Made by a program: the position numbers and the translations under genes | Shown here: positions 27,983 through 39,522 of the stretch, one piece after another | Numbering within the stretch: the stretch's first letter is position 1 | How the letters are laid out: each line of letters begins with the position of its first letter | The notes under the pieces: generated by a model | Databases searched by the model: none | What the model saw: only the letters and a program-made list of their open reading frames with translations | Told to the model about the DNA's origin: nothing | Origin: Rickettsia typhi | Lineage (GTDB): Bacteria; Pseudomonadota; Alphaproteobacteria; Rickettsiales; Deianiraeaceae | Reading direction: 5' to 3' | NCBI GenBank assembly: GCA_945889175.1 | Contig: CAMDBF010000004.1 | Location: 1 to 53,721 of the forward strand | DNA length: 53,721 nucleotides

Positions 27983-29215
27983 CTAACTAGCTAATTTTTG
28001 TATAACATTTTTAAATTTGAATGTCATTTTTTTTAATTGATTTTGATTTAGAGAATTTAAAAATGAGTTTTGACACATCATTTTCAAATCATTTTTTTTA
28101 TACAACTTACAATAAGGTTCGTTGATAATTTCATTAAAGAAAAAAGGATAATTAAAACATTTCAAAGTAACTGTAACATTATCAAGTTTAATAAGCTCAA
28201 CTGGAGTCAATACCAAAGAAGATTCGGAGCATAGTATTACATCAAATAATGTTTTTTTTAAAACATTATTATTAGCAATATTAATATTAGCTACACAAGA
28301 ATTAATAATTGATAAAATATTTGATTGAATAATTACATACACATCGTATAGTGTCTTGTTGTCAAAATTACTTTCCAATTGCTTATCTATATCATTATAA
28401 AATAAATTTTCGCTATGCATTCTTTGATTAAAACTTACAGCTACATTAAAAACATCCTGCGCGTCACCGTACTGTATGTCAAGATATTGAGATATTTGTT
28501 CTAAAACATTACTAAAACCAACATCTATAGTTTCAACGAAACAAAAACAATCACCTCTAAAAACCAAAATATTTGAAAAATTATCACCAACATATAAAAC
28601 GGACTTCCAAGAATTTAAATCAATATCCTCAGTGTAATTTAAAATACTTAAAGCTGTAAGTGTTAAAGAGTTTAATACTTTAGTGATATTTATATTACAT
28701 TCGTTTAAAATATATTTAATATTATTAAATATTACATTATCAAAACCTATCATCATCATTCCAATTGAAAAAGATTTACATGAATTTTCATAAGGAATGT
28801 AAAAATGTAAAGAATTTTCATTCAAAGAAACATAAGATGGTTTAACAATAAATATTTCAAAATCTTCGGTTTTTGAAATATCTTTAACTTTTTGCTCTAT
28901 TTTAGATATGTCAAATTTATTAATTTTTCTTTCAGATTGAAATTGTTTTTCAACTTCAATAATTTTAAATTCAGACCTACAATCATCTAAAACTAATATA
29001 AAATCAGACAATATAGTTTGGGTATACAATTCAGCATCCTGAACTAAATTATGAATTGTATACTTAAAATCCTTAACATTAAGTATTGACATGTTATTTG
29101 TAAAGCAGTTTAAAGAAACCTGTTTTGAATAAATACAAAATCCATCAAAATTAATTAAAATTAATGTCGCTATCTTTCTATTTAAAAAAATATAACTACT
29201 AAATACAGCTTTCAT
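27983..29215 (-). CDS. Degenerate FtsA/PilM-like actin-fold protein
   Basis: I start at ATG 29215; an in-frame ATG at 29254 adds 13 residues with no family likeness. The 410-residue chain is very divergent but follows the FtsA order: a first strand pair (about 14-29), MSILNVKDFKYTIHNLVQDAELYTQ like the GxIxNIxxxxxAIxxAxxxAE lead to the SHS2 domain, then FDISKIEQ. The SHS2-type segment (about 112-192) keeps NIKYILNECNINITKVLNSLTLTALSIL, and SVLYVGDNFSNILVFRGDCFCFVETIDVGF (about 195-224) lines up with the phosphate-2 loop. The DIGxxT/GGGT nucleotide-binding residues are missing. It may be a cell-division FtsA relative or a PilM-type pilus component; the adjacent GspE/PilB gene favours a link to the latter. 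The family call is moderate. Confidence 0.55.
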   Translation of the reverse strand: MKAVFSSYIFLNRKIATLILINFDGFCIYSKQVSLNCFTNNMSILNVKDFKYTIHNLVQDAELYTQTILSDFILVLDDCRSEFKIIEVEKQFQSERKINKFDISKIEQKVKDISKTEDFEIFIVKPSYVSLNENSLHFYIPYENSCKSFSIGMMMIGFDNVIFNNIKYILNECNINITKVLNSLTLTALSILNYTEDIDLNSWKSVLYVGDNFSNILVFRGDCFCFVETIDVGFSNVLEQISQYLDIQYGDAQDVFNVAVSFNQRMHSENLFYNDIDKQLESNFDNKTLYDVYVIIQSNILSIINSCVANINIANNNVLKKTLFDVILCSESSLVLTPVELIKLDNVTVTLKCFNYPFFFNEIINEPYCKLYKKNDLKMMCQNSFLNSLNQNQLKKMTFKFKNVIQKLAS

Positions 29216-29303
29216 TTTAAAAATACAATACCACCTAAAATAACAAAGATACAAATCTTAATGAACAAAAATATTTACATATTTAAAAAGAGATGCAAGT
29301 TTT

Positions 29304-30239
29304 TTACATTGTTCCACGTGGAACAATTTGTTTTCTTAGTCCGTTAAAAAAATCTTTAACATTCATTTGTCTTTTGTTAGCTGGCTGTATTACAATTGGA
29401 ACCACAAATCCATCACAAGATATTAAATCAATATCTGTTTCTTGTGATTTTGAAACTTTAGCATCTATAACCTTTATTATAATATCATTAAATCTAATTT
29501 TTACATAACCATGATTTGCAAAAGCTCTAATTTTACACATAATTTGAATTGATGTTAAACTTAGAGCTATTTCTTTACTTATAAATAATTCTTTTTTTGT
29601 AACTTTTTTAGCATATGACATTTTAATACTTTGATTTTGCGGTGTAAATGTAAAATCTTTATTATCTATAATTAACTTAATACATTCAACTATAGATAAT
29701 GCTCCTATATCAGAAAGTTTTTCCATAGCTTCAATCGAGTTTTTAAAATCACTAATTAATATATCACTTACCTTAAAAGCTAAATCACCAGAATCAAGTT
29801 CATTATTCATCTTTATTACACAAACAGATGTATCTATCTCGTTGTTTTCAATACTTCTTTCTATAGGTGCAGCTCCCCTGTATCTCGGTAGACTAGATGG
29901 ATGAATATTTAAAGAGTGGTAATTTGGAACCTTAAGTATAAATTCAGGCAAAATTAAACCATAGGAAACAACGACTATAAAATCTATTTTTAAAGATTTT
30001 AAAAAATATTCATCATCATTTGTTAATTGACTCGGTGTTTTAATAATATCTTTCAATCCAATATCTATAGCTTCTTGATAAACATCGGTAGATTTAAAAG
30101 CCATTCCTCTACCAGATTGTTTAGATTCTTGAGTATAAATAGAAGAAATTGTAAAATTTTCATTAATCGACCTCAGTGACTTTGTAGCAAATTTATCAGT
30201 TCCAAAAAATGCAATTTTTATATTTTTATAATCAAACAT
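29304..30239 (-). CDS. fmt: Methionyl-tRNA formyltransferase
   Basis: Formylates Met-tRNA-fMet for initiation. The 311-residue chain has IKIAFFGTDKFA at the start, a 10-formyl-THF site with IDFIVVVSYGLILPEFIL, the catalytic SLNIHPSSLPRYRGAAPI (about 113-130, with Asn and His of the active site), and ELDSGD with the catalytic Asp (about 148-153). The C-terminal OB-like domain is present. def is not adjacent. The start overlaps the hisF stop by one base. Its last codons, encoding IVPRGTM, contain a perfect parS-like palindrome, so this coding end is under double constraint. Confidence 0.95.
   Translation of the reverse strand: MFDYKNIKIAFFGTDKFATKSLRSINENFTISSIYTQESKQSGRGMAFKSTDVYQEAIDIGLKDIIKTPSQLTNDDEYFLKSLKIDFIVVVSYGLILPEFILKVPNYHSLNIHPSSLPRYRGAAPIERSIENNEIDTSVCVIKMNNELDSGDLAFKVSDILISDFKNSIEAMEKLSDIGALSIVECIKLIIDNKDFTFTPQNQSIKMSYAKKVTKKELFISKEIALSLTSIQIMCKIRAFANHGYVKIRFNDIIIKVIDAKVSKSQETDIDLISCDGFVVPIVIQPANKRQMNVKDFFNGLRKQIVPRGTM
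29310..29325. other. parS-like ParB-binding site 1
   Basis: TGTTCCACGTGGAACA is a perfect 16-base palindrome, and symmetry extends to 20 bases (29308-29327). It matches the bacterial chromosomal parS pattern TGTTnCACGTGnAACA, including the central CACGTG. It overlaps the last codons of fmt. An identical core occurs at 31704-31719. ParB-family proteins nucleate here to load partition complexes; parA and parB are not in the window. Confidence 0.88.
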
Positions 30240-30997: not shown

Positions 30998-31185
30998 AGG
31001 GTATTACATGAAATAATTAAATATAGTATTCTAATATATTTTTGTTTTTCAAGAAAAGTTTGTCTTTTTAAACTTTTATTATTTGAAATTTTGTTTTTAC
31101 GATAATACAGTTTATTCTAAATAGATTACTATTTTTATATATATTGAATTTGATTTTTATAAATTTAATTTTTTTAATCCGGATT

Positions 31186-31695
31186 ATGAGTATTGAGTTA
31201 CATAGGTTGCATTTTGAAAAAGTTATTTCTTTTTTAACAAGAGGAAATTTTAATATAGATAAAAACCTAGACAGACTTATAAATACCTATTACAACCTCT
31301 TTAATGGATACGATAAAGATGAATCTTCGTTAACTGAATATTTGATAAAATTTCAAACGATCGAAAAATATTCAAATACTATAAATATAAATAATATACC
31401 TTTTAGTTCTTTTTGTGAACATCATTTTTTAAAGTTTGAAGGATTTATTGACATATCCTACATTCCAAAAGATTACATCTTAGGATTTGATAGATTTCTT
31501 GATTTAATTAATATCAATTCAAGAAAGTTGCAGTTACAAGAAAAATTAGGAAACGATATCCTTAATTCGATAGTGAAAGTTTTGCAGCCATTAAAGTGCA
31601 TCGTTAAAATAAAGGCAAAACATGATTGTATTTGCATTAGAGGTTTTGAGGCAAGGGAAGTATTTATTGAGACTGTATCAAGTTTTAACTTTTAA
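31186..31695 (+). CDS. folE: GTP cyclohydrolase I, short divergent form
   Basis: First enzyme of tetrahydrofolate synthesis. I start at ATG 31186; the frame could begin at TTG 31144 but that adds a hydrophobic stretch unlike the family. The 169-residue chain keeps the active-site zinc ligands Cys77 and His80 in FCEHHF and Cys148 in KHDCICIRG, with catalytic His79 and His146, and the KLQLQEKLGNDI pattern (RLQxQErLT). It is about 50 residues shorter than Escherichia coli FolE at the N-terminus. The usual GLSK(L/F)AR region has become GFDRFLDL, so activity or allostery may be altered. A parS palindrome overlaps its stop codon. Confidence 0.85.
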   Translation: MSIELHRLHFEKVISFLTRGNFNIDKNLDRLINTYYNLFNGYDKDESSLTEYLIKFQTIEKYSNTININNIPFSSFCEHHFLKFEGFIDISYIPKDYILGFDRFLDLININSRKLQLQEKLGNDILNSIVKVLQPLKCIVKIKAKHDCICIRGFEAREVFIETVSSFNF

Positions 31696-31733
31696 ATTGG
31701 AATTGTTCCACGTGGAACAATTCCAATTTAAAA
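31690..31733. repeat. 44-bp perfect palindrome carrying parS-like site 2
   Basis: Every base from 31690 to 31711 pairs with 31733 to 31712, giving two 22-base arms with no interruption. The centre (31704-31719) is TGTTCCACGTGGAACA, the same core as site 1. The flanks are A/T-rich with GG/CC steps. The palindrome overlaps the folE stop (31693-31695). It is probably a parS centromere site; in RNA it would form a long hairpin and so may also act as a terminator or transcript 3' end. It is much longer than a simple parS. Confidence 0.9.
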
Positions 31734-31866
31734 TAATATATTGAAATATTTTTTTTATATTATATCCTTTTTTTAATGGTTTGTATTTTACATAATTTAA
31801 GAAGTTAAGTATGAAAATTATGTAAAACTAACTTTATTCCTATCTGTATATAGTAAAATTGTAAAA

Positions 31867-35786: not shown

Positions 35787-35806
<20 letters not shown>
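34439..35806 (+). CDS. ubiB: UbiB/ABC1-family atypical kinase
   Basis: Protein-kinase-like family member needed for ubiquinone synthesis or lipid-quinone handling in other bacteria. The 455-residue chain has the family KxGQ motif as KLGQ at 53-56, the Ala-rich nucleotide loop (SVASASIAL, about 113-121), EEIKNYKKL, the ExD-type MEWIDGFTL, FHADMHPGNL (about 275-284) as the catalytic loop and LIDCGNVSYL with the metal-binding Asp. The usual C-terminal pair of membrane helices is not obvious; the end has one weakly hydrophobic stretch. The start ATG lies inside the infB frame. Other ubi genes are absent here. Confidence 0.88.

Positions 35807-39522
<3,716 letters not shown>

Follow-up and report, generated by a model that had tools for sequence, protein, structure and literature searches.

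Genomic context of the palindrome

The window, that is, the whole stretch of 53,721 nucleotides that was analyzed, carries the gene folE, the 3' end of which runs into a 44-bp perfect palindrome with a parS core at its centre; infB follows on the far side, and a second parS core is located in the 3' end of fmt (Table 1). The cumulative GC skew reaches its minimum at the start of the divergent hisF–folE spacer, 0.74 kb from the palindrome centre. Because of the position of this minimum, both parS sites probably lie at the replication origin. No exact DnaA box (TTATNCACA) was found near the skew minimum, either in the genome of the window (G000) or in G001, the sole genome of the same genus that was compared.

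Table 1. Coordinates of the features at the folE locus, in positions of the window.
Feature	Position	Strand	Evidence and remarks
Second parS core, in fmt 3' end (fmt on the minus strand)	29310–29325		Motif match; palindrome arm 10
hisF–folE divergent spacer, 85% AT	30998–31185		Skew minimum 30972, probable origin side; G001 minimum in the same spacer
folE, GTP cyclohydrolase I	31186–31695	+	PF01227, E=1e-34; 8 bases between its end and the parS core
44-bp perfect palindrome	31690–31733		Sequence, inverted-repeat and simulation evidence
Left palindrome extension, with folE stop TAA (31693–31695)	31690–31703		Not conserved
parS core TGTTCCACGTGGAACA (putative ParB loading site)	31704–31719		Motif match; genome rarity; place 3' of folE common to G001
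Right palindrome extension	31720–31733		Not conserved
Palindrome–infB spacer, 85% AT	31734–31866		13-bp inverted repeat 31786–31798/31815–31827

G001 is a divergent relative (FolE 44%, InfB about 67–69% identical), in which pilB, the ORF at 27983, fmt, hisF and folE follow each other in the identical order. Its hisF–folE spacer contains, in addition to the skew minimum, two one-mismatch copies of parS (TGTTCTACGTGGAACA). An exact parS is found 19 bp after the folE stop codon in G001 and 8 bp after it in the window genome. The gene to the right of parS is infB in the window genome; in G001 its place is taken by an ORF judged by eye to be aspartokinase-like.

Two ORFs of the minus strand were noted in the surroundings. 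The one at 27983–29254, beside pilB and syntenic in G001, has a faint FtsA-like similarity (E=3e-11, below the cut-off) and possibly encodes a PilM/FtsA-type protein. The other, at 35787–37028, is weakly similar to NAD(P)-dependent glycerol-1-phosphate dehydrogenase/Fe-ADH_2, which is unexpected in an alphaproteobacterium.

The parS core and its putative cognate ParB

The 16-bp core fits the parS criterion TGTTYCACGTGRAACA, and the identical variant occurs across the family. Even with two mismatches allowed, the genome contains only two such cores, starting at 29310 and 31704 and 2.4 kb apart, in a 1.16 Mb assembly of 54 contigs that is 86% complete and from which further copies could be missing. 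The fmt copy encodes part of the Fmt C-terminus (...IVPRGTM); the copy in the palindrome is the sole non-coding one of the two and the nearest to the skew minimum.

The parA and parB genes were both identified. The product of parB, on contig C18 (L093:6593–8515 of G000), contains the domains PF02195 (ParB_N) and PF17762 (HTH_ParB), scores above the cut-off for TIGR00180, and carries a GERRYRAA motif; it is a CTPase-type ParB. R173 and G201 are absolutely conserved in ParB proteins, and Noc has Q and R in their place (PMC7383237); alignment with Caulobacter ParB reveals that the C18 protein keeps R and G at the equivalent positions. The parA gene, on contig C7 (L111:1492–2271 of G000), is of the usual type (PF13614, 207 bits). 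The genome thus encodes ParA and a putative cognate ParB with both residues of parS-type specificity.

This ParB has 640 amino acids, the first 330–370 or so of which form an N-terminal extension, low in complexity and very acidic, ahead of the normal ParB domains. The parA and parB genes are unlinked, being found on separate contigs with differing neighbours, and the usual parAB operon is absent.

After nucleation on parS, ParB slides onto the flanking DNA (PMC7053999). As far as sequence allows, the core is confirmed as a chromosomal parS, and, because this is established ParABS biology, ParB is predicted to bind and load there. Together with the fmt copy, the site is best read as a putative origin-side partition locus.

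Rarity of the extended arms

The two 22-nt arms of the palindrome (TTTTAAATTGGAATTGTTCCAC / GTGGAACAATTCCAATTTAAAA) are 100% complementary and meet with a loop of 0 nt. The sequence-only reading had described a perfect 44-bp palindrome that is centred on the parS core and overlaps the folE stop, and it is exact in both respects, with the TAA falling inside the left arm. Rarity was judged against a background of the window itself and simulated sequences. No other zero-loop palindrome in the whole window has an arm longer than 10, and the runner-up, with an arm of 10, is the other parS. Sixty sequences simulated to the length of the window with a first-order Markov model gave arms of up to 12, and the chance of 14 extra symmetric positions beyond the 8-base half-core amounts to about 7e-8 at the local composition. 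The simulation and this estimate rule out a chance origin of the palindrome. When three mismatches were allowed, the arm pattern matched this single site in the genome, on which ground a reading as a dispersed repeat was rejected. No known RNA family was found at the palindrome.

Arm lengths were compared in two sets of genomes, which are samples and not a census: A or T was demanded at the outermost positions, and the sites are those among the matches listed. The order sample comprises 175 genomes with 73 distinct parS sites listed, each with seven flanking bases (a 30-nt view), and 63 of these have perfect cores. Arms of 8–14 were found in 60 of the 63 listed perfect cores; the three that reach at least 15 are the palindrome of the window, a site in G053 (arm 16) and one in G019 (15). 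The class sample covers 115 genomes and 37 listed perfect-core sites with 14 flanking bases each, 36 of which have arms of 8–13, against 22 for the palindrome. Arms of this extent had been called unusual for a chromosomal parS, and they are indeed rare, nearly all listed sites of order and class falling at 8–16. The parS flanks in the order are A/T-rich, with A-rich positions 9–12. Their symmetry is somewhat over expectation near the core (52 of 73 versus 40 expected at position 9, among listed sites) and goes down to expectation by positions 13–15.

A separate observation concerns a contig of G019 (C175; L105, 1–5656) with 21 exact parS cores, nearly all of them within two coding ORFs, one ComEC-like (PF03772) and one UvrD/AddA-like (PF00580). 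In translation the cores give NVPRGTF, MFHVEHF, CSTWNNL and similar peptides. They sit in repeats of 55–82 nt; pairs are spaced by 46 nt, and a copy of 249 nt is present at 87%. This looks like a parS-bearing palindromic repeat that multiplies in frame inside genes.

Conservation of the site and of its arms

The window genome and G001 share a parS 3' of folE at the probable origin, but not the extended arms. The folE-linked parS of G001 has an arm of 10, as does the fmt copy, and the genome holds no near copy of the arms, which argues against the shared, functional extended arm that had been proposed. The sequence-only reading had itself named a lack of arm conservation in close relatives as the finding that would overturn it, and the arms are indeed unshared, as judged from one divergent same-genus genome; arms kept in closer strains would escape this comparison. 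A FolE scan across genome contigs gave only distant relatives (mainly Clostridia, and one Rickettsiaceae MAG), and hence no closer relative for judging arm conservation. The site does not belong to an extended (44-bp) parS class, as its arms are shared neither by the other copy nor by the sampled relatives. No paper on a parS that is embedded in a longer palindrome or that overlaps with a terminator came up in a literature search, which is weak evidence given the library searched. The extended arms most likely have no partition function and do not appear to form part of a conserved extended centromere.

Alternative readings of the arms

Since chance is excluded, the arms may be under selection. 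Their predicted transcript forms a 19-bp stem that includes the folE stop codon (−31.1 kcal/mol for a 121-nt stretch, z = −5.65). The palindrome could thus be in dual use, as parS in the DNA and, in the RNA, as a stem-loop under selection at the 3' end of folE, where it would protect the mRNA end or take part in termination. In G001, the parS hairpin is shortly followed by a T8 run (TGGTTTTTTTT), three bases past the symmetric part, so that in both genomes the parS downstream of folE may also serve as a hairpin at the 3' end. However, folding of the folE end of G001 is no better than that of shuffles (z = −0.79), and no other strong hairpin class was found at gene ends in the window. A T-tract directly after the stem is missing on both strands of the window genome; TAATATATTG is found there, and the nearest T-run lies about 17 nt downstream. 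The terminator scan does not call the palindrome, and terminator-like sites in the region show no excess (5 versus 6.3 in shuffles). We consider such a dual use unlikely, and the sequence lends no support to the bidirectional transcription end that had been suggested, a T-tract missing on either strand.

A second possibility is that the arms offer ParB or a partner additional contacts, or form an extruded cruciform, so that a master parS would nucleate spreading or give it direction. The position of the palindrome as the only non-coding copy, nearest the skew minimum, is in line with this, as are the A/T-rich flanks in the order and their slight excess of symmetry at the first flanking positions. 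This excess fades within a few bases in other genomes, however, and arms longer than 10 are missing from the fmt copy and from G001, which makes such an extended centromere distinctly improbable. The least credible reading is that the palindrome is an artefact of assembly or marks contigs joined at a short palindrome: the assembly is fragmented and the right-hand gene differs between the two genomes exactly past parS, but a false join at parS would leave the outer 12 bases non-complementary, the flanks beyond the 44 bp are unrelated and thus indicate no fold-back chimera, and G000 and G001 both show the reversal of GC skew here.

Proposed origin of the arms

Because the arms are neither due to chance nor shared, a cause within a single lineage is needed. 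Template switching at inverted repeats can generate a perfect inverted repeat in a single step (PMC8794818), and quasipalindrome mutations occur in E. coli (PMC7202029). The reading that we prefer, with a probability of roughly 0.7, is that of an ordinary oriC-proximal parS with arms that are a recent, local template-switch product. ParB-CTP clamps would load at the 16-bp core beside the replication origin. The parS, already palindromic, would have seeded a template switch (quasipalindrome correction) during replication, in which one flank was copied as the reverse complement of the other to give the 14-base extension on each side. The extensions would probably be neutral for ParB loading and play no part in partition, and the strong stem-loop that they place at the extreme end of the folE mRNA would be a side effect.

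FolE of the window genome ends four residues before the end of G001 FolE, and the core lies 11 bp nearer the stop codon. The stretch thus looks rewritten, which would fit a template switch without proving it; the ancestral flank is not recoverable from G001. Both the template-switch origin and the neutrality of the arms are what we infer from these comparisons.

The two parS sites beside the skew minimum mark where, in an uncultured lineage of Alphaproteobacteria, the origin and the partition locus probably lie. Long symmetric flanks of parS can be lineage-specific and need not signal a new class of centromere. If the arms were functional, with one element serving segregation as DNA and folE transcript-end formation as an RNA 3' hairpin, which we regard as unlikely, this would be a segregation site that doubles as an RNA 3'-end element.

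Comparison with known systems

The palindrome shares with intrinsic (rho-independent) terminators a strong stem-loop at a gene end; by contrast, it has no T-tract, its core is conserved as parS, and such elements are not enriched in the region. With the T-tract missing on both strands, a classical intrinsic terminator was rejected. The RPE-like dispersed palindromic repeats of Rickettsiales, which we take to be a similar case of palindromes in a compact, AT-rich alphaproteobacterial genome, differ in that here two copies only are found, clustered at the skew minimum, with flanks that are not repeated elsewhere. The Noc binding site (NBS) is likewise a 16-bp palindrome, recognised by a ParB paralogue, but the core is of the parS type and the ParB of this genome has the R173/G201 equivalents instead of the Q/R pair of Noc; an NBS identity was rejected on both grounds.

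The closest match is the chromosomal parS of ParABS systems (consensus TGTTNCACGTGAAACA), with which the site has in common the 16-bp core, the oriC-proximal position, and a genome that encodes both ParA and a ParB of the CTPase type. It differs in that the core sits within a 44-bp perfect palindrome, whereas nearly all sampled relatives have 16–32 bp of symmetry. The site is most likely a largely ordinary parS with a lineage-specific embellishment, and not a new kind of centromere.
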